DNA from: Gemmatimonadaceae bacterium
GTDB taxonomy: Bacteria; Gemmatimonadota; Gemmatimonadetes; Gemmatimonadales; Gemmatimonadaceae
Direction: 5' to 3'
Assembly (NCBI GenBank): GCA_019637445.1
Contig: JAHBVS010000002.1
Span: 434,001 to 498,000, forward strand
Length of the DNA stretch: 64,000 nucleotides
The position numbers were made by a program, and so were the translations under genes. Below are positions 17,361 through 33,258 of the stretch, piece after piece. Numbering within the stretch: the stretch's first letter is position 1; each line of letters starts with the position of its first letter. The notes under the pieces were generated by a model that worked only from the letters and a program-made list of their open reading frames with translations, searched no databases and was not told the origin of the DNA.

Positions 17361-18020
17361 ATGCAGACCATCCCGCTCGACCAGTACCGCCGACTGCCCG
17401 AAGTGGACATGCTCGCGCGCGCGCGCGAGTTCTCCGACGAACTGCGCCGCCGCCGCACGGTGCGGGACTTCTCCGACGAGCCCGTGCCGCGCAGTATCCT
17501 CGAGCCTTGCCTGATGGCCGCCGGCAGCGCGCCCAACGGGGCCAATCTGCAGCCCTGGCACTTCGTCGCCGTCTCCGATCCGGAGGTCAAGCGCGAGATC
17601 CGCGAGGCCGCGGAGGAGGAGGAGCGCGCCTTTTACAGCGGTCGTGCCACCACGGACTGGCTGGAGGACCTCGCCCATCTCGGGACCGACGAGCACAAGC
17701 CCTTCCTGCAGCGGGCGCCGTGGCTGATCGCCATCTTCGCCCAGCGCTGGCGGGCGCAGGAGGACGGCTCGCGCCGCGTGAACTACTACGTGCCGGAGTC
17801 GGTGGGCATTGCGACAGGATTTCTGATTGCGGCGCTGCATCACGCCGGCTTGGCGACGCTCACGCACACGCCGAGCCCGATGAACTTCCTGAACCGCATC
17901 CTCGAACGGCCGGCGTCGGAGAAGCCGTTCCTATTGCTGGTGGTCGGCTATCCGGCGGCGAATGCGCGGGTGCCGCAGATCACGAAGAAGACGCTGGACG
18001 AGATCGCGACGTTCCGCTGA
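17361..18020 (+). CDS. Iodotyrosine-deiodinase-like FMN reductase (nitroreductase superfamily)
   Basis: A 219-residue flavoprotein of the nitroreductase superfamily. [12 protein letters not shown] and [18 protein letters not shown] are FMN-binding segments. It aligns with the iodotyrosine deiodinase branch across its length: lid residues Glu88, Tyr92 and Lys113 keep the same spacing as the substrate-binding Glu/Tyr/Lys of animal IYD, and [15 protein letters not shown] plus the ending [16 protein letters not shown] match the IYD C-terminal half. IYD reductively removes halogen from halotyrosines. The native bacterial substrate is unknown. It has no partner gene; it is divergent from rhlE and convergent with the ABC cluster. 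Confidence 0.85.
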
Positions 18021-18076: not shown

Positions 18077-19336
18077 CTACTCGTAGCGCAGCGCCTCGAT
18101 CGGGTCGAGCCGCGCCGCGCGCTGCGCCGGCAGCACGCCGAAGATGACGCCGATCAGCACCGAGACCACCACGGCCACGGCGGTCAAGCCCAGCGGCGGC
18201 GACGCGCTGATGCCAAGCAGGCGCGTCACCAGCTGGCCGGCGCCGAGCCCGGCCACGATGCCGATCGCCCCGCCGATTCCGGTCAGCGTGGACGCCTCGA
18301 TGAGGAACTGCACGAGGATGTCGCCGCGCGTCGCGCCGAGCGCCTTGCGCACGCCGATCTCCCGGGTGCGGTCCGTGACGGACACCATCATGATGGCCAT
18401 CACGCCGATGCCGCCCACCAGCAGGGCCACGCTCGCCAGCACCAGCATCACCACGAAGAACACGCCGGTGAGTTGGTTGAACACGTCCAGGATCTGGTCC
18501 GAGCTCACGAGGTCGAAGCTGTTGCGCTGCGCCGGCCGCAAGCGCCGCAACTCGCGCAGTGCGATCGTCACGGCCTCCTCTGCGTCCTCCACCGTGACGC
18601 CGTCGCGCGGCCGCACGGGAATCCACAGCGCATTCGTGCGGTCGATGCGGTAGCCAGCGTCGAGCATCCGGAAGGGAATGACGGCGCCCGTCTCTGAACC
18701 TGGTGGCGCGAAGATGTTCTCCGGCGGCACGTAGAGCCCAATCACTTCCGCTGGCCGGCCGCCGACTTGGATGGTCTTGCCGAGGATGGACTCGCGGCCG
18801 AACAGGCGGCGCGCCAGCGCGTCATCAATCACCGCGACCGCCGCGCCACTCGAGAGCTCCGCGCGCGTGAACCAGCGCCCCTCGCTCAGTTCGCCGCCTT
18901 GGATCAGCGTGAATCCGTCATCGGCCCCGAAGATCGCCGTCGGTTGCGTCCGTTCGCCGCGATACGACAGTCGCGAGATGGTCTGCCCCCAGATCCCGGC
19001 ATAGGCGATCTCGGGCAGTCGCTTGATCAACTCGGCCTCCTCCTCCTCGAGGTCGGGCCGGATCCGCACCCAGGCGGGCGGGTTGTCCGGGTTGATGGGC
19101 GTACTCGAGTACGCCTTCATCACGTAGAAGGTCGTCGGGCCGGCGATCTCCACCGTACGGATGATCTGCGACTTCAGGCCTTCCACCAACGAGGCCATCG
19201 TCATCACGGTCGCCACGCCGATCACCACGCCCAGGATCGTGAGCGCGCTGCGCAGCTTGGACACCCGCAGCGTGTCCATCGCAATCGCGAGATTCTCGCG
19301 ATATTGGTCGAGGACGCGGAGGACGCGCACGCTCAC
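18077..19336 (-). CDS. MacB/FtsX-type ABC permease, B-type, pair 3
   Basis: A 419-residue permease with the MacB layout: TM1 at about 23-48 (LTILGVVIGVATVMTMAS), a large periplasmic core (about 50-290) and three C-terminal helices with the cytoplasmic DRTREIGVRKALGA motif, ending in LDPIEALRYE. MacB-type proteins transmit ATPase motion to the periplasm to drive substrate through a TolC exit. It starts at a GTG overlapping the stop of the preceding A-type permease (GTGA), implying a heterodimer. Unlike the other two B-type proteins it lacks the periplasmic cysteine pair. Last gene of the cluster. Confidence 0.88.
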   Translation of the reverse strand: MSVRVLRVLDQYRENLAIAMDTLRVSKLRSALTILGVVIGVATVMTMASLVEGLKSQIIRTVEIAGPTTFYVMKAYSSTPINPDNPPAWVRIRPDLEEEEAELIKRLPEIAYAGIWGQTISRLSYRGERTQPTAIFGADDGFTLIQGGELSEGRWFTRAELSSGAAVAVIDDALARRLFGRESILGKTIQVGGRPAEVIGLYVPPENIFAPPGSETGAVIPFRMLDAGYRIDRTNALWIPVRPRDGVTVEDAEEAVTIALRELRRLRPAQRNSFDLVSSDQILDVFNQLTGVFFVVMLVLASVALLVGGIGVMAIMMVSVTDRTREIGVRKALGATRGDILVQFLIEASTLTGIGGAIGIVAGLGAGQLVTRLLGISASPPLGLTAVAVVVSVLIGVIFGVLPAQRAARLDPIEALRYE

Positions 19337-20574
19337 TCCGCCCGCATCGCCGTGACCGGATCCAGGCGCGCGGCACGGCGCGCGGGATACACCCCGAAGA
19401 CCACGCCGATGCCGGCCCCCAGCGCCAAGGCCACCGCCACCGACCACCAGGTGATGCGCGCGGGCAGGGGACTGACCAGCGATACCAGGAACGCGAAGGC
19501 CCAGCCCGAGAACACGCCCATCAGGCCACCCAACGCGCTCAAGGCAATCGTCTCGGCGAGGAACTGCCGCTCGATGTCCCGCGAGCGCGCGCCCATCGCC
19601 TTGCGGATGCCGATCTCGCGCGTGCGCTCGTTCACGGCCATCAGCATGATGTTCATGATCACGATGCCGCCGACGACGATGCCGATGGCGACGACCGCCG
19701 GGATGACGGCGAACAGCACCTTGGTCAGGTTGCGCCAGAAATCCACCAGGGCGTCCGCGGTCTCCACCGAGAAGTCATTCTCCTCGAGCGGGCGCAGCCC
19801 GTGTGACAGCCGCATCGCCTCTTCGGCGCGCGCCATCGCCGGTGCGACGTCCTCGGCCTCGCGCATCTTCACCGAGATCGTCGTCGTGAGCCGACGGCCG
19901 TAGCGCATCTCGAAGCGCGAGATGGGGATCAGCGCGAAGGCATCGAACGACTGGCCCAGCACGCGGCCCTTGGCCTCGTTGACGCCGATCACCGTGAAGC
20001 GCTCGCCGGCCACGCGGATCTCCTGGCCGATCGGGTCCACCGACTCGAAGAGCTTCTCCGCCACCTCGCTGCCGAGCACGACCACGGGCATCCGAGCGGA
20101 CACATCCACGGCCGAGAGCGCCCGGCCGCGGGCAATGCGATAGTCCTGCACGACCTGGTACTCCGGCGTGATGCCAAAGACCAGCACGCTGCCGATCGTC
20201 CGTCCGCGCCAGATCACATCGGTGCTCGGCGTCGGCCAGCCCGACTGCATCGAGATGGCCTCGGCGTCGGGGATGGCCGCGCGCACGGCGTCGACGTCGC
20301 GCGTGCTGATGCGCGGCCGGCGCTGGACCTTGGCCCACTGGTCGTCGTTGAATGGCCCGATCTGGATCGGGGTGCGCCGCACCTGGAACGCGTTGGCGCC
20401 CACTACCGCGCCCGCGATGTTGTCCTTCACGTAGGCGTTCATCCCTTGGATGATCGCCACGACGGCAATCAGGAAGGCAACCGAGACGATGATGCCGAGC
20501 AGCGTGAAGAAGCTGCGCAGCTTGTTGCCGACGATCTGTGCGAACGCGATGCCGAGGACGTCGAGGGGGCGCAC
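19333..20574 (-). CDS. MacB/FtsX-type ABC permease, A-type, pair 3
   Basis: A 413-residue permease: TM1 at about 19-44 (SFFTLLGIIVSVAFLIAVV), periplasmic core, and the C-terminal FtsX domain with VNERTREIGIRKAMGAR, ending in LDPVTAMRAE. Sequence features (NKLRSFFTLLGI, then EGMxxY/QGMNAYVKDNI) match the A-type proteins at 25847 and 28356 more than its own partner. The GTG at 20574 is the start. It follows the hybrid kinase gene by 9 bases, so sensor and permease pair are in one transcription unit. Confidence 0.88.
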   Translation of the reverse strand: MRPLDVLGIAFAQIVGNKLRSFFTLLGIIVSVAFLIAVVAIIQGMNAYVKDNIAGAVVGANAFQVRRTPIQIGPFNDDQWAKVQRRPRISTRDVDAVRAAIPDAEAISMQSGWPTPSTDVIWRGRTIGSVLVFGITPEYQVVQDYRIARGRALSAVDVSARMPVVVLGSEVAEKLFESVDPIGQEIRVAGERFTVIGVNEAKGRVLGQSFDAFALIPISRFEMRYGRRLTTTISVKMREAEDVAPAMARAEEAMRLSHGLRPLEENDFSVETADALVDFWRNLTKVLFAVIPAVVAIGIVVGGIVIMNIMLMAVNERTREIGIRKAMGARSRDIERQFLAETIALSALGGLMGVFSGWAFAFLVSLVSPLPARITWWSVAVALALGAGIGVVFGVYPARRAARLDPVTAMRAE

Positions 20575-20583
20575 CCCTGCAAC

Positions 20584-23349
20584 TTACAAGGCGGTCGCGT
20601 CCTCGCGCTCACGGACGGCGTCCAACAGCTCCTCGAGCTTGCGGATCAGGTCATCCGGTGTGAACGGCTTCGCGATGAAGCCGGAGTCCTCGAGTTCGCC
20701 GCTCTGGATGGCGGCGTTGGCGGTGTAGCCCGACATGAACAGCACGGGCAGGCCGGGGATGCGCTTTCGCATCGCCCGCGCCAGCTCGACGCCCCCCATC
20801 TCCGGCATCACTACGTCGGTCAACAGGGCGTCCACCGGCGTGTCGAGGCGCTCCGCCATCGCCAGTGCGTCGTTGCCGTTCACGGCGGCGTGCACGCGAT
20901 ACCCGCGCGCGGTCAGCATGCGCAACAGCAGGGTGCGAATGGCCGACTCGTCCTCGGCGAGCAGCACCGTGGCGCCCGTGGGCTCGGCAACTTGGCGGCG
21001 TCCCGCAGCCGGCGAACCGCGCCCACCCGCGGGCAACACGATGCGGAACGTCGACCCCTTGCCCGGTGCGCTCTGCACGGCAATCGCACCGCCGGCATTG
21101 CGCACGATGCCGTAGCAGACGGCCAGACCGAGACCCGTGCCCTCGCCCACGCGCTTGGTGGTGAAGAAGGGTTCGAACACGCGCTCCACCGTCTTCGCGT
21201 CCATCCCCATGCCGGTGTCCGTCACGGCCAGTTCGACGTACTTACCCGCCGACAGCGACGGGAAGTCGGCGGCCGGCGTGCTGCCGACAGTGCGGCGCGC
21301 GCCACGAATTGTGATGGTGCCCCCGTCGGGCATCGCGTCGCGCGCATTCACGATCAGGTTCACCAGCAGCTGCTCCAGCTGGCCGGCGCCGAGCCGCACA
21401 GTGCCCAGTTCCGGCTCCAGCGCGAAGGACAGATTGATCTCGGGACCAATGAGCCGGCGCAGCATGCTCTCGGCGTCGCGGGCGCGGGCCGCCACGTCCA
21501 CCGCCATCGTCTCCACGACCTGCCGCCGGGCGAAGGTCAGCAACTGCTTCGTGAGATCTGCCGCCCGCAGGGCCGCCTGCTCGGCTTCCGCCAGCGCCTC
21601 GTCCATCGAGGACCCGGTCTCGAGTTCCGAACGGCAGGCCTCGAGGTTGCCGAGGATCGCGGTCAGGATGTTGTTGAAGTCGTGGGCCACGCCGCCGGCC
21701 AGCTGACCGATCGAGTCCATCCGCTGTGCCCGCTCCAGCGCTTGCTCCAGGCCGCGACGCTCCTGCGCGTCAAACGCGCGCGAGGCGAGGTCGGCGGCGC
21801 TGGCGAGGAATGCCGTCTCCTCCGCCGACCAGCGGCGGCTCGCGTCACGGGCCTCCACGATGAGGGCGCCGATCTCGCGGCCGGCCGAGGTGATGGCCAC
21901 CTTGTGCGCCCCGGTTCCCGCCAGCTCCTCGCGGGGATGCCGTCCGGGCCGCGCCGTGTGCGCTGCCGCTGCCGCATCGTACTGCGTGACTGGGCGGATC
22001 TCGTCCTGCACCGTCTGCCAGGCCGTGCAACGATCGGCCTCGAGCGCCGTCGCCACGAATCGCGTGAGTGCCTGCATCGCGCGCCCCACCTCGCCCGACC
22101 CCAGGGCCTCCGCCTCCTCGGCCGCAAAGGTGCGCAGGCGGTTGTCGAGCTCGCGCACGCGCTGGCGCACGCCGGCATCCTCGGACACGAGGATGAACAC
22201 CGGGGTGTCACCGCCGGCCGAGTACTGCAGCGCCACCTCCGCCGGCCGGATGGACCCGTCGTGCCGGCGCAGCCAGATGGTGAGCAGGGCGCGATCCTGC
22301 GGGCTGGCCCGCAACTGCGCGAGGATCGTGGCCAGCCGCGCATCCTCGAGGCCCGCGATGAGGTCGTCCAGGCGCAGCCGGGCGATCTCGTCCGGGGTGT
22401 AGCCGAGGGCCACGCAGAGCCCGCGGTTGGCCTGCAGCACGCCCAGCGTCTGTGCATCGAACACGCCGATCTCGCTGGACGACTCGTCCAGCACGCGTCC
22501 GAAGCGCTCGGTGAGGGACTCACGCGCCCGCGTCTCCTCCGCCGCCCGATCGCGGAGCACGCCGGTCATGTCGTTGACGTGCGAGGCCAGCAAGCCGAGT
22601 TCGTCGCTGCCGCGCACGGGGATCTCGGTGTCCAGGTCTCCTGCGATGATGCGCTGCACGCCGCGCTCGAGGGCGCGGATGGGCAGGTAGAAGCGGCGGC
22701 GAACCAGCAGGACGCCCGACGCGAGCAGGAGCAGGCCGAGCACGACCCAGGCCTGGGACCAGCGCTCCAGGGTCTCGAGGCGACCCAGTAGGCGCTCTTG
22801 GCGTCCGAGCACCTCCAGCATCGCGGTGCGCTGCGCCACCGACAAGTGCATGGTGGCCGAATCGGTCGCGGCATTGGCGGAACGCAGCGCCAGGACGGCC
22901 GGCGGCATCGTGCCGTTCTCGATGTAGCGGATGGCGTCCGAGACCAAGACGGCGGCCTGGGTCTCGCGCGCGATCGCCTGCGCCAGCTCCAGGCGCATCT
23001 GCAGCGGGATGTCGGCGCGCTCGATGCTGGCCCGCGACGCGCTGGCCTCCTCGATCAGTCGCGTGACGATCCGGCGAATCGAGTCCAGCGACGGCTCGAT
23101 CGGCACGGGCGGTGGAGTGGCCACCACGTGCAGCACGGCCATTCGCCGTGCGTACAGGGAGCGCTGCACACGCTCCATCGACTGGTCGTGGTCGAGCAGG
23201 ATGTCCGAGGTCGCACCACTCAGCGACTGTGCGGCGGGCCGCAGCAGCACGACCACCTGGACCGTCAGCGCGCTGACGTAGGCGATGGCGATGACGCCCA
23301 TGCCGACCAGGAGGCCGCGCAGGGAGATCGAGGCGCGACGCTCGCTCAT
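20584..23349 (-). CDS. Hybrid sensor histidine kinase (HAMP-PAS-GAF-HisKA-HATPase-REC)
   Basis: A 921-residue inner-membrane kinase. Two TM helices (about 12-35 and 195-215) bracket a helical periplasmic domain; then HAMP (about 216-270), PAS (about 285-410), a GAF-like segment (about 425-540), HisKA with His556 in GGVAHDFNNILT, HATPase (NARDAMPDGG, TGMGMD, GTGLGL), and a C-terminal receiver with Asp845 in LLTDVVMPEMGG. There is no output domain, so phosphate must pass to another protein. Its ATG overlaps the solute-binding-protein stop by 4 bases (ATGA), which strongly suggests that the lipoprotein is its ligand-sensing partner. Confidence 0.9.
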   Translation of the reverse strand: MSERRASISLRGLLVGMGVIAIAYVSALTVQVVVLLRPAAQSLSGATSDILLDHDQSMERVQRSLYARRMAVLHVVATPPPVPIEPSLDSIRRIVTRLIEEASASRASIERADIPLQMRLELAQAIARETQAAVLVSDAIRYIENGTMPPAVLALRSANAATDSATMHLSVAQRTAMLEVLGRQERLLGRLETLERWSQAWVVLGLLLLASGVLLVRRRFYLPIRALERGVQRIIAGDLDTEIPVRGSDELGLLASHVNDMTGVLRDRAAEETRARESLTERFGRVLDESSSEIGVFDAQTLGVLQANRGLCVALGYTPDEIARLRLDDLIAGLEDARLATILAQLRASPQDRALLTIWLRRHDGSIRPAEVALQYSAGGDTPVFILVSEDAGVRQRVRELDNRLRTFAAEEAEALGSGEVGRAMQALTRFVATALEADRCTAWQTVQDEIRPVTQYDAAAAAHTARPGRHPREELAGTGAHKVAITSAGREIGALIVEARDASRRWSAEETAFLASAADLASRAFDAQERRGLEQALERAQRMDSIGQLAGGVAHDFNNILTAILGNLEACRSELETGSSMDEALAEAEQAALRAADLTKQLLTFARRQVVETMAVDVAARARDAESMLRRLIGPEINLSFALEPELGTVRLGAGQLEQLLVNLIVNARDAMPDGGTITIRGARRTVGSTPAADFPSLSAGKYVELAVTDTGMGMDAKTVERVFEPFFTTKRVGEGTGLGLAVCYGIVRNAGGAIAVQSAPGKGSTFRIVLPAGGRGSPAAGRRQVAEPTGATVLLAEDESAIRTLLLRMLTARGYRVHAAVNGNDALAMAERLDTPVDALLTDVVMPEMGGVELARAMRKRIPGLPVLFMSGYTANAAIQSGELEDSGFIAKPFTPDDLIRKLEELLDAVREREDATAL

Positions 23350-24500
23350 CGCGCCCCCAGCAAGATCGACTCGCCGTTCCGGACCTGCGTCATCAGCAAG
23401 GGGCGCTGGATGCCGGGCACGAAGGCGATCGGGCCGGTGATGCCCTGGAACGGCTCGCGGGTCACGCCGAGCGAACGCAGGTACGCGAGCACGGCCTCCC
23501 GCGACCGACCGCCTTCGCGAATCGCCGTCGCTGCGAGGACCGCTGCGTCACGGAACACGGCATCGCCGTGGCGCGGCGTCAGTCCCGTGGCCGCGCGGAA
23601 TCGCGCCGTGAATGCTTGGGACGCGGAGTCCGCCTGCGACGGGTGCCAGAAGGCCACGAGGAAGAGACGTTCCGTGGCCGGCCCCCAGTTGCGGATGACC
23701 GCCTCGTCCACATAGACGCCGTCGCCGGCGAGCAAGTGCAGCGCCGGCAGCTCCTGGCGGAGGGCGCGGGCCGCGCAGACCGCCTCCTGCGTCCGCGAGG
23801 CCAGCACGACCACGTCCAGCGGTCCCTGGCGCTTCAGGGACTGGGCGATCGTGGCGTAGTAGGCCGGGCCATCCACGCCGGTGCAGGCGCGCCAGGTGGA
23901 GAGCGGGACTCGCGCGACCTCCTCGATGCCACGCGCGTGGAACTCCGCGGCAGTGCCGGCCGCGAGGCCGATGCCGTACTCGTCCGCCACGTAGATGATC
24001 GCCGCCCGCCGCGCCCGTAGCGCCGAATCCGCGAACGCGGCGATGAACGCGCCCTGTACCGAATCGTTCGGCGAGATCGGCAGGGTCGTGTGGCCCGCCG
24101 TCGCCAGCGCCCGACTCGTGGCGGTCGGCACCAAGTCGGCCAGTCCCGCGGCCTCGTAGAGCGGTGCCACCTGCAGCGCCTCCCGGCTTCCGCCCGGTCC
24201 GACCACCGCCAGCACCTCTGGGTTGTCCACCAGCCACGCCGCGCGGGCCACCTCGGCCGGCAACACAGCGGCGGCGAAGACCTTGAACCCGCCTTCCGGC
24301 GAGATGAGCAGTCGCACCGAGTCCGCGCCGGCACCGCCGGCGAGGTCCACCTCCTCCTGCAGTACGCTGTCGACTGGCGACGGGCCGAACGTATAGGTGA
24401 ATCCCACGGCAGGCACGCCCGCGGCTTCCCCGCAACCCAATGCCACAGTGAGCAAGGGGACGCCGAGCAGGCGATTCAGGAGGGAGATCCGGTCCCGCAT
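23346..24500 (-). CDS. LivK-type periplasmic solute-binding lipoprotein (sensor partner)
   Basis: A 384-residue lipoprotein (lipobox TVALGC, Cys23) with a type I periplasmic-binding-protein fold of the branched-chain amino-acid/amide family: VVGPGGSREALQVAPLYE and GLADLVPTATS, then AAIIYVADEYGIGLA and a late GDGVYVDEAV region. It has no ABC import partner here; instead it overlaps the hybrid kinase gene by 4 bases, so it probably presents a ligand to that kinase. The ligand is unknown. The ATG at 24500 lies next to two small palindromes that may be its control region. Confidence 0.82.
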   Translation of the reverse strand: MRDRISLLNRLLGVPLLTVALGCGEAAGVPAVGFTYTFGPSPVDSVLQEEVDLAGGAGADSVRLLISPEGGFKVFAAAVLPAEVARAAWLVDNPEVLAVVGPGGSREALQVAPLYEAAGLADLVPTATSRALATAGHTTLPISPNDSVQGAFIAAFADSALRARRAAIIYVADEYGIGLAAGTAAEFHARGIEEVARVPLSTWRACTGVDGPAYYATIAQSLKRQGPLDVVVLASRTQEAVCAARALRQELPALHLLAGDGVYVDEAVIRNWGPATERLFLVAFWHPSQADSASQAFTARFRAATGLTPRHGDAVFRDAAVLAATAIREGGRSREAVLAYLRSLGVTREPFQGITGPIAFVPGIQRPLLMTQVRNGESILLGAR

Positions 24501-24509
24501 CACTCTAAA

Positions 24510-24530
24510 GTATCGGATACGGACCGGTCC
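24510..24530. promoter_or_regulatory. Two adjacent palindromes upstream of the solute-binding/kinase pair
   Basis: GTATCGGATAC (24510-24520, 5-bp arms) is directly followed by GGACCGGTCC (24521-24530, perfect). They sit 9-30 bases before the ATG of the solute-binding lipoprotein, in the only sizeable gap (77 bases) of this part of the cluster. They could be an operator; no regulator is assigned. Confidence 0.35.
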
Positions 24531-24577
24531 GGCGTGATGCGGCGGGCTTTGGGCCCCGCGGGGACCTCGCGGCCGAT

Positions 24578-25843
24578 CTACTCGTGCCGCAGCGCCTCGA
24601 CCGGATCCAGCCGCGACGCGCGCGTGGCGGGCAGCATCCCGAAGACGATGCCCGTGGCAGCCGCGCCCAACAGCGAAGCGATGATCGCCCCCACCGGCAC
24701 CGAGGCCGGCACCGTCGTGTTCGCCCGGATCACCCAGGCCAGCGCCGAGCCCAGCAACAGCCCGATCAAGGCACCCAGCGAGGTCAGCGTCGCTGCCTCC
24801 ACCAGGAACTGCCAGAGAATGATCCCGCGCGTGGCCCCGAGCGCCTTTCGGACGCCGATCTCGCGCGTCCGCTCGGTGACGGAAATCATCATGATCGCGA
24901 CCACGCCCACGCCGCCCACGAGCAGGCCGACCGCCGAGAGCCCGAGGCCGACCATGAAGATGGCGCCGAAGAGCTGGTCGAAGACCTCCATCATCCGGTC
25001 CTGGCCCACGAGGAAGAACGAGTTGGGCTGGCTGGGGCGCAGGCCGCGCATCCCGCGCAGCGTCGCCGTCACCGCGTCCATCGCGTCGTCGCGGCTCACG
25101 TCGGCCTTGGGCTTCACCATCACCATGAAGGAGCGGCGCCAGACGTCCATCTTCCGCCACGCCGTCATCATCGGCATCACCATGCGCGGCGTATCGGGGC
25201 CGCGCCCGTCCAGCGACTTGAGGAAGCCGGCCTTTGTGTGGTAGACACCGATCACGAGGAACCGCCGCCCACCAACGTCGATCTCCTTGCCGATCGGATC
25301 CGACTCGAGGAACAGCTCGTCCGCGAGCTTCTTGTTCAGCAGCACGACCTGCGCGGCGCCATCGTGCTCGGCGCCCGTAAACGTACGCCCCGGATCCACG
25401 TCCGCCTGGTCCGTCTCGATCCACTCCGGCGTCTGGGCGTCATAGCCCACGTTCTTCACGATGCGGTCGCGGTAGGTCACCGTGCCCTGGCCGAAGAGCC
25501 AGCCCATCGCGTTCTCCACCTCGGGCAGTTCCCGCACCGCCTTCCACTCCTCGAGCGAGACGCCGGGGAAGCGGCGCTCGGGGCAGTCATCGGTGGTGGG
25601 GTTGCAGGCGCTGAAGCCAGGGTTGCGGCGACGGATCTGGAACGTGGCCGTGCCGAACTCGTCCATGTCCGACTGGAATGACTGCCGGATGCCGTGCACG
25701 GTGGCGCCCATCGCCACGACGACGAACACACCCACTGCCACGCCGGAGATGGTCAGGGCCGCGCGTACCTTGTTGGCGCGCAGCGAGTCGAGGGCCATCA
25801 ACATGCCCTCGAAGGTCATCTGCAGGCGGTCCCAGAGTCTCAC
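24578..25843 (-). CDS. MacB/FtsX-type ABC permease, B-type, pair 2
   Basis: A 421-residue permease with TM1 at about 29-50 (LTISGVAVGVFVVVAMGA), a periplasmic MacB core, three C-terminal helices with VTERTREIGVRKALGA, and the ending LDPVEALRHE. The early periplasmic part carries Cys80 and Cys87 (C-x6-C), a spacing shared with the B-type protein at 27095. A GTG at 25843 starts it, 3 bases after the stop of its A-type partner. It needs an ATPase in trans, probably the one at 29665. Confidence 0.88.
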   Translation of the reverse strand: MRLWDRLQMTFEGMLMALDSLRANKVRAALTISGVAVGVFVVVAMGATVHGIRQSFQSDMDEFGTATFQIRRRNPGFSACNPTTDDCPERRFPGVSLEEWKAVRELPEVENAMGWLFGQGTVTYRDRIVKNVGYDAQTPEWIETDQADVDPGRTFTGAEHDGAAQVVLLNKKLADELFLESDPIGKEIDVGGRRFLVIGVYHTKAGFLKSLDGRGPDTPRMVMPMMTAWRKMDVWRRSFMVMVKPKADVSRDDAMDAVTATLRGMRGLRPSQPNSFFLVGQDRMMEVFDQLFGAIFMVGLGLSAVGLLVGGVGVVAIMMISVTERTREIGVRKALGATRGIILWQFLVEAATLTSLGALIGLLLGSALAWVIRANTTVPASVPVGAIIASLLGAAATGIVFGMLPATRASRLDPVEALRHE

Positions 25844-25846
25844 GGC

Positions 25847-27085
25847 CTATTCCTGGCGAAGGGCGGCGATGGGGTCGAGCTTGGACGCGCGGCTGGCGGG
25901 ATAGATCCCGGCGGCGATGCCGACGCCCGCGCCCACGACCAACGCAAATACCAGCGACCACGGCGCCACGCTGGCCGGCAGCGGCGTCACGGCGGCAATC
26001 AACTGCGCCATCCCGATGCCCAGCGAGGCACCGATGGCCGCGCCGATGACAGACAGCGTGGCGGCCTCGACCAGGAACTGCGAGATGATGTCCCGCCGCT
26101 TGGCACCCAGCGCCTTCCGCACGCCGATCTCCCGCGTGCGCTCGGCCACCGCCACCAGCATGATGTTCATGATCACCAGCGCGCCGACCACCAGCCCGAT
26201 GGCCGGCAGGGCGGTGCCGAAGAGGATCAGCTTGCCCTTGAGCTCGTCGAAGAAGCTGAGGGCAGCGTCCGAGGTCTCGAGCGCGAAATCGTCCTCGTCA
26301 CCCGGCCCCAGCCGGCGGAAGCCACGCATCGAGCTGCGCACCTGCTCCATGCCGTCATCGAGGATCTCGCGCGTCGGCGCCTGCACCGTGATGCGGCCGA
26401 TGTCGCCGCGCGGGCGGATGCTGCGCGACATCGGGGAGGTGTAGGGCGCGATCGCCAAACGGTCCATCGAGAAGCCAAACACCGAGCCCTGCGGCTCGAT
26501 GACGCCAATCACCTGATACATCTGCCCGGCAATGCGCAGGTCGCGGCCCACGGGGTCGAGGTTGGGCCAGTAGTACTTGGCCACCTCATCGCCGATGACC
26601 ACGACCTTGGCGCCGGCGGCCACGTCCTGCGGGCCAAAGGCGCGCCCGTTGGTGATGCCGAACTTCTTGATGTCGAAGTACGATGCGTCCGTCGCCACCG
26701 CCTGTACGTCGCGCGGCCGGATGCCCGGCACGAAGGCCGAACGGAAGGTCTCGTTCACCCGCGCCACGCGGAACGACGGGCCGAGGGCCGTGCGCACGAT
26801 GTCCGCGTCGCGGTCGTAGATGCGCGGCCGCCGCAGGTAGGCCCGCCACTCGTCGTCCGACTCGTTCGGCGTGAAGTTGGGCCAGCGCCGCACGTCGAAG
26901 GTGTTCACGCCGATGATCTTCGCCGCGAAGTCGTTCTCGACGTAGTCGCTCATCCCCTCGACGATCGACACCACGGCGATGAGGAACATCACGCCGATCA
27001 TCACGCCCGTGAGCGTGAAGAAGCTCTTCAGCTTCTGCACGCGGATGGTCTGCAGGGCGAGACGGATGGCTTCGAAAAAGGGCAT
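25847..27085 (-). CDS. MacB/FtsX-type ABC permease, A-type, pair 2
   Basis: A 412-residue permease: short N-terminal helix, TM1 at about 23-45 (FTLTGVMIGVMFLIAVVSI), then EGMSDYVENDF, a periplasmic core, and VAERTREIGVRKALGAK between the last helices, ending in LDPIAALRQE. It is a close paralogue of the A-type gene at 28356 (N-terminal 50 residues nearly the same), so the pair arose by duplication. It follows the B-type gene at 27095 by 9 bases and precedes its own B partner by 3. Confidence 0.88.
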   Translation of the reverse strand: MPFFEAIRLALQTIRVQKLKSFFTLTGVMIGVMFLIAVVSIVEGMSDYVENDFAAKIIGVNTFDVRRWPNFTPNESDDEWRAYLRRPRIYDRDADIVRTALGPSFRVARVNETFRSAFVPGIRPRDVQAVATDASYFDIKKFGITNGRAFGPQDVAAGAKVVVIGDEVAKYYWPNLDPVGRDLRIAGQMYQVIGVIEPQGSVFGFSMDRLAIAPYTSPMSRSIRPRGDIGRITVQAPTREILDDGMEQVRSSMRGFRRLGPGDEDDFALETSDAALSFFDELKGKLILFGTALPAIGLVVGALVIMNIMLVAVAERTREIGVRKALGAKRRDIISQFLVEAATLSVIGAAIGASLGIGMAQLIAAVTPLPASVAPWSLVFALVVGAGVGIAAGIYPASRASKLDPIAALRQE

Positions 27086-27094
27086 CGGGAGGTG

Positions 27095-28351
27095 TTACTC
27101 GTGCCGGAGGGCTTCGACCGGATCCAGGCGCGCGGCACGCGCGGCCGGGATCATTCCGAAGAGGATGCCGGTGACGCAGGACGCCAGGAGCGCGGCGACC
27201 ACAGCACCCGGCGGGATGCTGGCGTTGATCGGCGTGCCGGCGCGGATGAGCGTGCTCACCACCCAGCCGAAGGCCAGCCCGGCAAGCGCGCCGATGCCGG
27301 TCAGGGTCACGGCCTCGATGAGAAATTGCCAGAGGATCGTCGTGCGCGTGGCGCCCAGCGCCTTGCGCACGCCGATCTCCCGCGTCCGCTCGGTGACCGA
27401 GATCATCATGATGGCCACCACGCCCACGCCGCCGACGATCAGGCCGACCGCCGAGAGCGCGATCATCACGAGGAAGAACATGCCGAAGATCTTGTCGTAG
27501 GTCTCCAGCAGCTGGTCCTGCGTGAGGATGGCGAAGTTGCTCTCCTGCGAGGGCCGCAGGCCACGCGCGGCGCGCAGCGTCACCGTCACCTCGTCCACCA
27601 TCTCGTCGCGCGAGACGTCGGCCCGCGGCTTCACGACCAGGCTCATGTCACTGCGGCGCACGTTCAAGGCGCGCTGCAGCGTCGTCACCGGCATCACGCC
27701 CTTGGGGCGGTCACCGCCGGAGAGAAAGCTGGCGTTGTCCTTGTAGATGCCGATCACGGTGAACTGCGTGCCGTTGATCGAGATCGTCTTGTCCAGCGGG
27801 TCCAGCTCCCCGAAGAGGCGCTCGGCGGCCGTGGTGTTCAGCACCACCACGCGGGCCGCCCCACGTACTTCCTGCTCGGTGAACACGCGGCTGCCAGGCT
27901 GCATCTCGGGCGCGCCGAACTGTGCCCAGTTCGCCGTATACGCCTCGATCGGCGCGCTGGCCAGCGAGCGGTCGCGGTACTTGAAGGCACCGCTCCAGTC
28001 CATGCGCACGCCGACGGCGGCCGCCGAAGGCAGGGCCTGCAGCCGCTCGACCTCGGCCCAGGAGAGGGGCGGGTTGCGCAGCCACTTGCAGGTGTCGTCC
28101 GAGCCGTCGCAGGCCTCGAAGCTGATCGGATAGCGCGAGACGAAGAACGTGGTCGGTCCCGTGGACTCGAAGTCCTGCGCCACGCTCTGGTTGATGCCGT
28201 GCACGGCCGCCGAGATGACGACCACCACGAAGACGCCCACCGCGACGCCGAGGATGGTCAGGCCAGCGCGCACCTTGTTGCCGACGATCGACTCGAGGGC
28301 GATACGCACGCCCTCGGTCAGGTTATAGAGGCGGGAACTCAGGCCGCTCAT
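27095..28351 (-). CDS. MacB/FtsX-type ABC permease, B-type, pair 1
   Basis: A 418-residue permease: TM1 at about 31-52 (LTILGVAVGVFVVVVISA), periplasmic core with Cys81 and Cys88 (C-x6-C), C-terminal FtsX domain with VTERTREIGVRKALGA, ending in LDPVEALRHE. The ATG at 28351 lies 4 bases after the stop of the A-type gene at 28356, so the two are probably made together as a heterodimer. Longer upstream frames are only read-through of the neighbour. Confidence 0.88.
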   Translation of the reverse strand: MSGLSSRLYNLTEGVRIALESIVGNKVRAGLTILGVAVGVFVVVVISAAVHGINQSVAQDFESTGPTTFFVSRYPISFEACDGSDDTCKWLRNPPLSWAEVERLQALPSAAAVGVRMDWSGAFKYRDRSLASAPIEAYTANWAQFGAPEMQPGSRVFTEQEVRGAARVVVLNTTAAERLFGELDPLDKTISINGTQFTVIGIYKDNASFLSGGDRPKGVMPVTTLQRALNVRRSDMSLVVKPRADVSRDEMVDEVTVTLRAARGLRPSQESNFAILTQDQLLETYDKIFGMFFLVMIALSAVGLIVGGVGVVAIMMISVTERTREIGVRKALGATRTTILWQFLIEAVTLTGIGALAGLAFGWVVSTLIRAGTPINASIPPGAVVAALLASCVTGILFGMIPAARAARLDPVEALRHE

Positions 28352-28355
28352 CGCA

Positions 28356-29600
28356 TCACTCCTGGCGCAGGGCGACGACCGGGTCCAGCCGCGACGCGCG
28401 GCTCGCCGGGTACACGCCCGAGACGATGCCAACCCCCATCCCGACGCCGACTCCGACGATGATGGACCAGGGTGCGACGCTGGCCGGCAGCGGCGTGGCC
28501 GCCGCAATGGCCTGCGCGAAGCCGATGCCCAGTGCGATCCCAAGGCCGGCGCCGACCGTGCTCAGGGTGGTGGATTCCACGAGGAACTGCGCGAGGATGT
28601 CGCGCCGCTTGGCGCCCAGCGCCTTCCGGATGCCGATCTCGCGCGTCCGTTCGGCGACGGCCACCAGCATGATGTTCATGATGACGATGGCGCCAACCAC
28701 GAGGCCGATGGCGGGCAGGGCCACGCCGGCGACCACGAGATAGCCCTGGAGCTTGTTCCAGAACTCGAGTGCGCTGTCCGAGGTCTGCATCGCGAAGTTG
28801 TCCGCCTCGGCCGGCCGCAGGCCGCGGCGCGTGCGCATGACGGCGCGCACATTCTCCTTGGCCTCTGTCAGGACATCCTGGTTCTCGGCCTGGATCACCA
28901 CCGCGTCGATCTGGTGGGGCAGCGGGTTGAGCAGTTTGCGAATCGGCGAGCGCCACGGGGCAATCACGAAGTTGTCGAACGAGATGCCAAAGGCGCTGCC
29001 CCGCGTGTCGGTCACGCCAATGACGCGATACGGGGTGGAGCCAATCCGGAGCTCGCGGCCGATGGGGTCGAGGCCGGGGAAGGCGCGCTCGACCATGTCG
29101 GGGCCGAGGATGACGACGTTCTCACCCTGCGACAGTTCCTGCTGCGTGAACTGGCGTCCGTCCTTGAGGTCCAGGCGCTTGATGGTGAACCAGTCGCCGT
29201 CCACACCGATGGCCCGCGTCTGCCGCGGACGGGCGTAGCGCGACACGGCCGTGACGCCGGCCTCGGACTCCTGGGCCCAGCGCGTGCCCTCGGGCAGCGC
29301 CTCGACCACCGGCCGCAGGTCGGCGATGGTCATGCGCGGCCGCCGCCGCCAGGACTCCCATTCGGCGCGGTCCACGTCGCCCAGCTGGATGTTCGGCGCA
29401 CGACGCAGCTCGAAGGAGTTCACGGCAATCAGCTTGCCGACGAGGTCCTCCTTCATGTAGCGCCCCATCCCCTCGATGATCGAGACGACGGTGATGAGGA
29501 ACATCACGCCGATGCAGACGCCCGCCAGCGTGAAGAAGCTCTTGAGCTTCTGGACGCGGATGGTGGCGAGGGCGAGCCGGACGGCTTCGAAGAGCGGCAT
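28356..29600 (-). CDS. MacB/FtsX-type ABC permease, A-type, pair 1
   Basis: A 414-residue permease: N-terminal EAVRLALATIRVQKLKSFF, TM1 at about 23-45, EGMGRYMKEDL, periplasmic core, and VAERTREIGIRKALGAK in the C-terminal FtsX domain, ending in LDPVVALRQE. It is the first permease after the ATPase gene (64-base gap), so it and the B-type protein at 27095 are the best candidates for the basic MacB-like complex. The ATG at 29600 begins at the conserved N-terminal helix. Confidence 0.88.
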   Translation of the reverse strand: MPLFEAVRLALATIRVQKLKSFFTLAGVCIGVMFLITVVSIIEGMGRYMKEDLVGKLIAVNSFELRRAPNIQLGDVDRAEWESWRRRPRMTIADLRPVVEALPEGTRWAQESEAGVTAVSRYARPRQTRAIGVDGDWFTIKRLDLKDGRQFTQQELSQGENVVILGPDMVERAFPGLDPIGRELRIGSTPYRVIGVTDTRGSAFGISFDNFVIAPWRSPIRKLLNPLPHQIDAVVIQAENQDVLTEAKENVRAVMRTRRGLRPAEADNFAMQTSDSALEFWNKLQGYLVVAGVALPAIGLVVGAIVIMNIMLVAVAERTREIGIRKALGAKRRDILAQFLVESTTLSTVGAGLGIALGIGFAQAIAAATPLPASVAPWSIIVGVGVGMGVGIVSGVYPASRASRLDPVVALRQE

Positions 29601-30465: not shown

Positions 30466-31734
30466 TTACTTGCCCTCCTCGGGCTTCTTGGCGTCAGGCG
30501 TTTCGCGGACGAGCTGTCCGTCCTTCAACTCGCGGATCGCCTGGTAGGTGCCTGCCACGATGCGCTCGCCCGGCTCCAGCCCGGAGAGGACCTCGAAGTG
30601 CTTCTCGCCAGCGATCCCCACCTTTACGGGGCGGAACGTGACTTTGTTGTCCGCGCCGACAATGAACACGCCCTCGACGTCGCGCTTGCCGACCTCGGGT
30701 GCCGCCGTCCCCGTTGAGGGCGGGGCGTCGGTCTGCTTGAGGGCCTCGTTCTCGCGCACCGTCAGCGCGATGATCGGGATCGAGAGCACCTGCGTGCGGG
30801 TGTCCGTGATGATCTTGGCCGTGGACGAGAAGTCCGGGCGGGTGTCCGCCGGGGCATTCAGGATGCGCACGGTCACGAGGTAGTCGATGGCCTGGTCGGC
30901 GCTGCCGGCGGCCGCACGGGCCACCGAGCTGTTGGAGATCTCCGTCACCCGGCCCACGAAGGTCGTGTCCGGGAAGGCGTCGATCTGCACGACGGCCGAG
31001 TCGCCGACGCTGATGCGCGAGACGTCGGTCTCGTCGACCTTCACCTCGGTCTCCAGCACGCTCATGTCCGAGATCGTGAGCAGGATGGCCGCATCACGGT
31101 TCAGCGTGCCCATGATGGCCGTCTCGCCCACCTCGACGTTGAGCCGCGTCACGCGGCCCGTCATCGGGGCGTAGATGGTCGTGCGCGAGAGCTGCCAGTT
31201 GGCATCCTTGAGGCTGGCTTCCGACTGCTTGACGTTCTCCTCGGCGGCGGTCACCAGCGCCTGGTTCACGTCCAGCTGCGTGCGCAGCTGCTCGATCTCC
31301 GCGGCGGAGACCAGTGCGGCGTTGGTCTTGCGGATCTCCTCCTGGCGCTCGTAGTTGCGGCGCGCCTGGAGCTCATTGGCCTTCTGCTGCGCGAGGGACG
31401 CGCGCGCATTGGCCAGCGCCGCCTCCGCACGCTGCACCTGGGCCTCGAACTGCTGCGGGTCGATCTGCAGCAGGAACTGGCCGGACTTCACCCAGTCGCC
31501 CTCCTTGACGGAGAGGCGCGTGATGCGGCCGGTGATGTCGGCGGAGAGGTCCACCTTGGTCTCCGGCACGACCTGGCCGCTGGCGGTGACCGAGGCCACG
31601 AGGTCGCGGGCCTCAACGCCCTCGACGCGCACCACGGTGCCCTTGTTGTTGGAGCGTGCGGCGGAGGTGGCGGCGACGGCTACCACCGCCAACACCACCG
31701 CGCCTGCGATGCCCATCTTCATCTTCTTACTCAT
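30466..31734 (-). CDS. MacA-type periplasmic membrane-fusion protein
   Basis: A 422-residue adaptor: one N-terminal TM/uncleaved signal (about 8-27), a split biotinyl-lipoyl domain (VSADITGRITRLSVKEGDWV-type, about 55-90 and 190-215), an alpha-helical hairpin rich in Ala/Gln/Glu (about 90-190), a beta-barrel and a membrane-proximal domain, and a charged C-terminus. It joins the inner-membrane permeases to the TolC protein encoded just upstream. Twelve bases separate it from the tolC-like gene. Confidence 0.9.
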   Translation of the reverse strand: MSKKMKMGIAGAVVLAVVAVAATSAARSNNKGTVVRVEGVEARDLVASVTASGQVVPETKVDLSADITGRITRLSVKEGDWVKSGQFLLQIDPQQFEAQVQRAEAALANARASLAQQKANELQARRNYERQEEIRKTNAALVSAAEIEQLRTQLDVNQALVTAAEENVKQSEASLKDANWQLSRTTIYAPMTGRVTRLNVEVGETAIMGTLNRDAAILLTISDMSVLETEVKVDETDVSRISVGDSAVVQIDAFPDTTFVGRVTEISNSSVARAAAGSADQAIDYLVTVRILNAPADTRPDFSSTAKIITDTRTQVLSIPIIALTVRENEALKQTDAPPSTGTAAPEVGKRDVEGVFIVGADNKVTFRPVKVGIAGEKHFEVLSGLEPGERIVAGTYQAIRELKDGQLVRETPDAKKPEEGK

Positions 31735-31746
31735 ACGCTCCTCAAC

Positions 31747-33258
31747 TCAGCGAAGGGTGCGGCCGACGGCGTTCTCAAGCGCCGCGTACGCCCGGTGGAA
31801 TTCATAGACTGCGTCGATCCGGTCCGTCTCGGCGCGCTCGTACTCGCCGCGTGCCGTGGTCAGGTCCACGAAGGTGTTGGCCCCGACGCGATACCGCTCC
31901 TCGGCCAGCTGCAGCGCCTCACGCGCCGTGGCCGCATTGCGCTCCTGCAGCTCCACGGCACGATGCGCGGCCTGCAGGGTCACCAGCGCCGACGTCACGT
32001 CGGCCGTGAGCTGCAACTCCTGCCGGCGCACCGAGTACTCGGCGTCACGGCGGGCCGCGTTGGCCTCCTGCAGGCGCGACTCGCGCCCCAGCCCGTCGAA
32101 CAGCGGCAGGGAGATGCCCATCGACAGGTTATAAGGATTTCGCGTGAAATCAAACGGGAACTTGTTGTTCTGGTCCCGGATCGCCTGCTCCTGCGCCGGC
32201 GTGAACACGATGCCCGCGCACTGCGCGGCGATGCTCGACAGGCCGGCTCCGACGCGGATCGAGTCCGTCGTGAAGCAGTTGGCCTGGCTGCTCAGCGCAC
32301 CGGCCTGGGCCTGCGCAATGGTCACATCGATGTTCGTCTGCTTCTGCGTGAACGCACCCACCGAGGCCGAGAACGACAGCGTCGGGGTGTACTCGCTCTG
32401 CGCCGAGCGGACGCCGGCCACGGCGACGCGCTGACGCGCCTGCACGGCGAGCAGCGTCGGATTCTGGCGGCGCGCCGTTTCCAGCAGGTCGCCCAGCTGG
32501 TAGCTCGGCGCGGTGATGGCCAACTCGGCCGTCAGCTCCACGCCCTCGGGCATCGGGACGCCAAGCTGCTGGAAGAGCCGCAGGCGCTCCACTTCCGCGG
32601 TGTTGCGGGCGCGGAGGGCCGCCACTTCCTGCTGGCCGAGCTGCACCTCGGCGCGCTTCACGTCCAGCGAGGTGCCGGCGCCCACGCCGGCGCGGGCCTG
32701 GGCCAGCTCCAGCTGCAGGCGCTGCTGCACCACCAGCGTGTCCTGAAGGTTCGCGCGGGCCTGCGTCTGCAGGGCCAGGAGGAACTGGGCGGTCACGCCC
32801 GAGCGCAGCGTGAACACCGCCGCCTCGACCTCGGCGTCGGCCGCGTCGAGCTGGGCATTGGCCCGCTTGATGTTATTGAAGGTGTTCCAGCTCAGCCGCG
32901 AGCTGGCCGAGAGGTTCCACGAGGACGAGAGGATGTCCGAGGTGGCACCGAAGGCGACACCGCCGAAGAACTGCGGGCGGCCTTCACGATAGCTGGCCCC
33001 GAAGCTGGCGTCGGCGCTGGGCAGCAGCGCGCCGTAGGCCGTGCGCGTGCCGGCGAGGGCGCGCGTGCGGCTGTTCACCGCCTGCTGGTAGACCGGGTTG
33101 TTCCGGCGGGCGATCTCGAGGGCTTCGTCGAGGGACAGCGACGTCCGCGTCGGGGTCTGCGCCGCGGCCGGCAGGGCCGCGCACAGGGCGATCAGGGCGT
33201 AGCGAGGGAATCGGAGCACCGTGTATACCATTGAAAGGATGTCGTAGGTCGCCAACAT
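31747..33258 (-). CDS. TolC-family outer-membrane efflux protein
   Basis: A 503-residue exported protein with two TolC repeats: long helical stretches (LSLDEALEIARRNNPVY early; LQEANAARRDAEYSVRRQEL and ALQLAEERYRVGANTFVDL late) around beta segments. It forms the outer-membrane channel of the tripartite exporter. The ATG at 33258 immediately follows the upstream TAG, suggesting coupling; an alternative ATG at 33231 would give a shorter, more typical signal peptide ending at LPAAAQ. An insert with two cysteines lies near residues 325-345. Confidence 0.9.
   Translation of the reverse strand: MLATYDILSMVYTVLRFPRYALIALCAALPAAAQTPTRTSLSLDEALEIARRNNPVYQQAVNSRTRALAGTRTAYGALLPSADASFGASYREGRPQFFGGVAFGATSDILSSSWNLSASSRLSWNTFNNIKRANAQLDAADAEVEAAVFTLRSGVTAQFLLALQTQARANLQDTLVVQQRLQLELAQARAGVGAGTSLDVKRAEVQLGQQEVAALRARNTAEVERLRLFQQLGVPMPEGVELTAELAITAPSYQLGDLLETARRQNPTLLAVQARQRVAVAGVRSAQSEYTPTLSFSASVGAFTQKQTNIDVTIAQAQAGALSSQANCFTTDSIRVGAGLSSIAAQCAGIVFTPAQEQAIRDQNNKFPFDFTRNPYNLSMGISLPLFDGLGRESRLQEANAARRDAEYSVRRQELQLTADVTSALVTLQAAHRAVELQERNAATAREALQLAEERYRVGANTFVDLTTARGEYERAETDRIDAVYEFHRAYAALENAVGRTLR

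Follow-up and report, generated by a model that had tools for sequence, protein, structure and literature searches.

The DNA considered here is a 64,000-nucleotide stretch from Gemmatimonadaceae bacterium (assembly GCA_019637445.1, contig JAHBVS010000002.1, positions 434,001-498,000, forward strand), referred to below as the window. Its minus strand carries, from 33258 to 18077, an operon encoding in order a TolC-type channel, an adaptor, a stand-alone ATP-binding cassette (ABC) ATPase, the permease pairs A1-B1 and A2-B2, a binding protein, a hybrid histidine kinase and a third pair, A3-B3 (Table 1). An earlier note on this DNA had described six MacB-type permeases in the order A-B-A-B-(sensor)-A-B, and all six are present on the minus strand, each with MacB_PCD and FtsX domains. 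The interval given there, 18077-29600, does hold the permeases, but the system starts at 33258 with the TolC, adaptor and ATPase genes. Likewise the "sensor" does lie between pairs 2 and 3 but consists of two genes overlapping by 4 bases, one for a Peripla_BP_6 protein and one for a hybrid kinase with its own receiver. Comparison with relatives makes it likely that the operon encodes a tripartite type VII exporter in which one ATPase drives three A:B pairs, and probably unlinked permeases too.

Table 1. Genes of the minus-strand operon, from first to last.
Feature	Coordinates	Strand	Basis and remarks
TolC-family outer membrane channel, operon's first gene	31747..33258	-	TIGR01844 match under cut-off; position kept in related loci
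MacA-like periplasmic adaptor (membrane fusion protein)	30466..31734	-	TIGR01730 above cut-off; HlyD_D23, HlyD_3
Stand-alone MacB/LolD-type ABC ATPase, sole member of its class in the genome	29665..30465	-	ABC_tran
Permease A1	28356..29600	-	MacB_PCD + FtsX; A clade
Permease B1	27095..28351	-	MacB_PCD + FtsX; B clade
Permease A2	25847..27085	-	MacB_PCD + FtsX; A clade
Permease B2	24578..25843	-	MacB_PCD + FtsX; B clade
Periplasmic binding protein, branched-chain amino acid type	23346..24500	-	Peripla_BP_6, ANF_receptor
Hybrid histidine kinase	20584..23349	-	HAMP, PAS (under cut-off), HisKA, HATPase_c, receiver (Pfam)
Permease A3, old pair lineage 'b'	19333..20574	-	MacB_PCD + FtsX; cluster b
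Permease B3, old pair lineage 'b'	18077..19330	-	MacB_PCD + FtsX; cluster b

The permeases are 412-421 residues long, with both domains above cut-off in all six and no ABC_tran domain found in any of them by Pfam search. The A and B genes are separated by 4 bases in pair 1, 3 in pair 2 and 2 in pair 3, the last figure depending on the GTG chosen as the B3 start. Within the window the A proteins share 54, 38 and 41% identity, the B proteins 52, 38 and 38.5%, and A with B 31-33%, pair 3 being the outlier in both classes. The C-terminal motifs on which the two classes were first recognised are borne out, with A1 carrying LDPVVALRQE, A2 LDPIAALRQE, A3 LDPVTAMRAE, both B1 and B2 LDPVEALRHE and B3 LDPIEALRYE. 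By sequence, MacB and the pneumococcal permease 5xu1 are the nearest neighbours of both classes, far ahead of LolC/E. The AlphaFold models of A1 and B1 (mean predicted local distance difference test 80.7 and 82.2) also match 5xu1 best (A1, Z 29.9, root-mean-square deviation 4.2, 381 residues aligned; B1, Z 31.2, 4.7 and 382), followed by LolE chains (Z 25-26) and then MacB, with 366-395 residues aligned overall. The six proteins are MacB/FtsX-type (type VII) ABC permeases with a four-transmembrane fold and a periplasmic core. Their equivalog scores are 144-191 bits for MacB (cut-off 966) and 27-55 bits for LolC/LolE (362).

In a joint FastTree phylogeny of 138 pairs from 56 family genomes, together with three further permeases from the genome of the window, the A proteins all fall in one clade (support 0.989) and the B proteins all in a second (0.994), the separate and mirrored branching that the earlier note had anticipated; neighbouring genes did not group together. 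Median A-B identity is 0.306 for own partners and 0.311 for all A-B combinations, and since partners are no closer than strangers, recent tandem duplication of one permease type is ruled out. Pair by pair, A distances follow B distances (r 0.957), compared with r 0.044 ± 0.028 and a maximum of 0.178 in 300 runs in which partners were shuffled within genomes. Clustering resolves two old pair lineages of 97 and 41 pairs, split identically for A and B, with the second lineage, to which pair 3 belongs, providing the last pair in 28 of 28 ATPase operons that hold it together with others. As judged from these sequences, the pairs duplicated and descended as A/B units.

The gene orders of relatives were read from hidden Markov model matches on stop-to-stop open reading frames (ORFs), scored per whole ORF, such that the ends of adaptor and TolC matches and the gaps next to them are approximate. 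A-class genes occur in 57 of the 59 family genomes searched (from listed bit scores); 80 loci from 55 genomes were fetched, making 56 genomes with the window, A genes on certain very small contigs, that of G007 included, being omitted. The number of pairs varies with the score threshold, from the 138 used for trees to 140 in the gene-order survey. The A-B alternation noted in the window is conserved family-wide, 140 of the 141 A genes having a B gene next in order and the remaining one standing alone at a contig end. Three B genes stand alone, two at contig ends and the third, in G021, a weak copy (186 bits) that is perhaps decayed. It could be argued that A and B each form homodimers, so that a three-pair operon would supply six pumps, in keeping with the homodimers formed by MacB, FtsX and LolF (available text of PMC5985334 and PMC8277102) and with the MacB-like fold of both the A1 and the B1 model. 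Such an arrangement is very unlikely in view of the one-to-one adjacency and mirrored divergence of the two classes, and of the known two-permease relatives, in which LolC forms a heterodimer with LolE (PMC8277102, in part) and VarD is found with VarE (PMC5595328, in part). The permeases probably form A:B heterodimers.

Two to four pairs are present in 47 of the 56 genomes and an ATPase operon lies within reach in 54, with one complete pair in 15 operons, two in 21, three in 15 and four in 2; a further operon is truncated within its first pair. The description of the system in the earlier note as a modular exporter with exchangeable heterodimeric permeases therefore needs qualifying: several pairs per ATPase make it modular, but given the conserved pair order it is the ATPase, more than the pairs, that merits "exchangeable". 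Remote pairs number sixteen, spread over 15 genomes, with no type VII ATPase in flanks of 3 kb or more on both sides. This count was 30 before the flank rule and 17 after it (13 near contig ends being dropped), and excludes G009, whose third pair adjoins the ATPase operon in tail-to-tail orientation.

The ATPase of the window best matches the ATPase part of MacB in NCBIfam, with LolD next, and has the Walker A, Q-loop, LSGGQ, Walker B and H-loop motifs. In a survey of 54 ATPases the H-loop THEP was found in 40, ILLADEPTG in 51 and the other three motifs in 53. The claim of a single ATPase stands, in that one of the 38 ABC-ATPase matches of the genome (3.35 Mb, seven contigs) falls in the window, and no extra ATPase of the class was found in the window or the surveyed family loci. 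The same genome has 40 MacB_PCD matches in about 26 permease proteins (counted from listed ORFs); with the window ATPase as query only four of its ATPases exceed 190 bits, the other three being 45-47% identical, with 47% for the second-ranked one. About fourteen of its permeases are long proteins with two MacB_PCD matches each (ADOP- or YbbP-like), beside the four close type VII ATPases. Genome-wide searches of the 59 family genomes found a single ATPase of the class in 56 (at least 385 bits, 78-100% identical), none in three (G027, G036 and G046) and two in no genome, the next class starting at 273 bits among the matches listed; nor did the fetched loci of any of the 56 genomes hold two. The AB operon of G036 is cut at a contig start, and as such its ATPase may be absent from the assembly.

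The strongest evidence for a shared motor comes from outside the window and is the reciprocal loss of the ATPase between AB operons and a second, unlinked locus, which encodes TolC, ATPase, adaptor and a single permease, P. Gene order differs beyond the family surveyed above. In family f2 most fetched AB operons have the order TolC-adaptor-ATPase-(AB)1-3. All nine f5 AB loci for which wide flanks were fetched run TolC-adaptor-A-B with no ATPase, and so do the two-pair loci of G069 and G112 in f2. No hidden ATPase was found within 15-20 kb of these AB operons, and their adaptor-A gaps of 22-78 bases leave no room for one; an ATPase is present instead at the unlinked TolC-ATPase-adaptor-P locus. 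The reverse is seen in f1 and f7, where the ATPase is in the AB operon and the P locus has none.

Comparison of ATPase, P and AB in 36 genomes, with most loci read directly, places the ATPase at AB only, beside a P locus without one, in nine (G000, the genome of the window, G049, assigned from coordinates alone, G158, G110, G016, G013, G029, G154 and G084). It is at P only in eleven (G069, G072, G107, G087, G116, G078, G079, G132, G162, G097 and G108), or thirteen with G112 and G146, whose P loci are split over contigs. Both loci have an ATPase in six (G060, G067, G086, G139, G074 and G071), an AB ATPase occurs without a P of the class in four (G022, G048, G011 and G077), and the state of G062 and G150 is not resolvable. 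Of the 27 genomes whose AB and P loci can both be resolved, 26 retain at least one ATPase of the class, G111 being the exception. A shared motor would account for the loss of either copy but, G111 and G129 apart, never of both. The system is real and conserved, its support coming more from relatives than from the window itself.

Several further observations concern these loci. In G071 the ATPase of the AB operon (contig C12, locus L218, about 96600-97300) is split over two frames, with an intact copy at the P locus, possibly reflecting loss in progress or an assembly error. Outside the window, contig C1 of G000 has two loci (L089 and L090) with an adaptor and a single P-class permease, one of them with TolC, and no ATPase. 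G022, G048, G011, G077, G107, G132 and G062 have a separate, self-contained system made up of a 245-287-bit ATPase and, directly next to it, another kind of single permease that scores 390-437 bits against the P profile. Four loci obtained by scanning viral contigs with the P alignment were not used.

These arrangements suggest a mechanism in which a homodimer of the stand-alone ATPase would dock on the coupling loops of an A:B heterodimer, with ATP-powered closing moving the periplasmic domains and the adaptor and TolC taking cargo outward. Three alternative pairs with a common docking loop and different periplasmic domains would then provide three pumps on one motor, probably for three cargo classes, and the same motor probably also serves unlinked ATPase-less permeases, namely the P pumps here and remote AB pairs in relatives. 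Residues 313-342 of A1, which we take to be the coupling loop from MacB-type structures, share 68% identity between partners and, between paralogues of the same genome, 76% for A and 82% for B, compared with 22% between partners and 34% between paralogues for the periplasmic domain. The C-terminal tail is conserved to a similar degree to the loop, A and B being most alike in these two regions. A conserved loop with divergent periplasmic domains is the pattern expected of one motor with several cargo domains, which is supportive but not decisive.

A rival reading is that the extra pairs are not pumps. Only the pair adjacent to the ATPase might transport, the others being BceB-like sensors or resistance modulators with no need of ATPase turnover, and non-transport or sensing roles are known for type VII proteins (available text of PMC5985334). 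In the window and in G049 the binding protein and hybrid kinase directly precede pair 3, which might hint at such a role. This explanation is nonetheless improbable. The coupling loop is conserved among paralogous pairs to the degree given above, hardly any other multi-pair operon has the sensor cassette (the binding protein has three matching ORFs in total) and the AB pair of f5 retains TolC and adaptor yet has no ATPase in cis. The cassette of G049 (locus L009) is from the same genus as the window and most relatives have none.

Several points weigh against a shared motor. Mirrored A and B trees are expected from linkage as well as from contact, and the coupling loop is conserved superfamily-wide, so that its conservation is not specific to ATPase sharing. 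Remote pairs mostly have no adaptor and TolC and so may not export. In the six genomes with two copies, the AB and P ATPases are 72-81% identical (five genomes measured). The tree of AB and P ATPases as a whole favours neither two clades nor one (approximately unbiased test, p-AU 0.451), and would fit one old duplication or repeated exchange of copies. G111 has AB and P with only a 206-bit ATPase fragment, and G129 has an AB pair alone with no ATPase above 252 bits, such that either another ATPase stands in or these pairs are idle. In keeping with the former, the extra and remote pairs could be powered by LolD- or YbbA-type ATPases of the cell, since ATPases of this wider type were found in every genome searched, including the three close relatives of the window ATPase. 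We consider this unlikely, as LolD and YbbA ATPases are normally paired with their own permeases, pairs 1 and 2 share an operon with the window ATPase at a spacing of 3-9 bases inside and between pairs, and the class ATPase is kept in nearly all resolvable genomes, whichever locus lost it. One motor shared by the A:B pairs remains the preferred explanation.

A scan of named genome contigs gave 591 candidate loci, and among the best 80 of these the nearest relatives are in Gemmatimonadota, with more distant loci in Acidobacteriota, Zixibacteria, Bacteroidota and others also having a pair or multi-permease layout. In 22 of these 80 there are 23 two-permease runs, mostly from Acidobacteriota, that have flanks of at least 3 kb and belong to a locus devoid of any type VII ATPase. 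The A/B labels of distant loci are weaker, with score differences of 40-90 bits or none, and the label "ADOP/dup" used for them denotes a long ORF and nothing more. Several Acidobacteriota loci among L134-L154 and L193 encode A/B pairs, in some cases along with an adaptor, and lack a type VII ATPase at the same locus, and L168 (Bacteroidetes) has six permeases in a row after one TolC, adaptor and ATPase. Within the window, a plus-strand ORF (17361-18020) heads toward the operon end; its product, judged by eye, is presumably nitroreductase-like.

By analogy with the Mce systems, the chances are about even that in Gemmatimonadota, and perhaps Acidobacteriota, one trans-acting and freely exchanged ATPase runs a set of unlinked MacB-type exporters. 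Each would have permeases of its own and in many cases an adaptor and channel as well, the ATPase being a plug-in energy module for export. If so, energy and specificity would be separate in MacB-type exporters, the ATPase-less type VII permeases of both phyla would be partly accounted for, and loss of one gene could silence several pumps together. A search of titles and abstract openings in the open-access literature found no report of ATPase sharing in MacB-type exporters or of these loci; motor sharing is familiar in some nutrient importers and apparently undescribed for this kind of exporter. What appears to be new is the combination, in a tripartite exporter of the MacB type, of reciprocal motor loss and a single ATPase for several pairs, the components being known separately.

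As in tripartite ABC exporters, adaptor and TolC genes are part of the operon, and export would take place through their products. MacAB-TolC has the same adaptor, channel and permease fold, and MacB is the best solved sequence match, but MacB forms homodimers and carries a fused ATPase domain, which the six permeases do not have. ADOP proteins, as their name describes, are type VII permeases orphaned of an ATPase; the six proteins match their profile (TIGR03434) at 112-140 bits, far under the cut-off of 622, and each is a single permease unit, unlike the two units per long chain of ADOP. As in the shared-ATPase systems of MceG and MsmK, permease sets here outnumber ATPases of the matching class, but both of those are importers, of lipids in the case of Mce. 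Mce permeases also belong to a different family from the MacB type, and those of MsmK systems have a different fold. The available text of PMC4519317 describes MsmK-type sugar ATPases, one of which serves several ABC systems. In Mycobacterium tuberculosis, Mce1-4 have YrbE1-4A/B pairs at several loci and one ATPase, MceG, for all, with a common cytosolic loop of the permeases proposed as its docking site (PMC9947336, in part), an arrangement of several A/B pairs and one ATPase like that of the window. In LolCDE a LolC:LolE heterodimer of the four-transmembrane MacB fold sits on a LolD dimer (PMC8277102, in part), which likewise combines two different permeases with one separate ATPase, as do the two clades and one ATPase here, but with one pair per ATPase and no adaptor or TolC, and the six permeases are nearer to MacB by sequence. 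VarACDEF of Vibrio cholerae, for which the available text of PMC5595328 describes a single pair and mentions no further pairs using its ATPase, comprises two ATPase-less MacB-type permeases, a separate ATPase, an adaptor and a TolC-type channel, a list of parts equal to that of one A/B pair system here.

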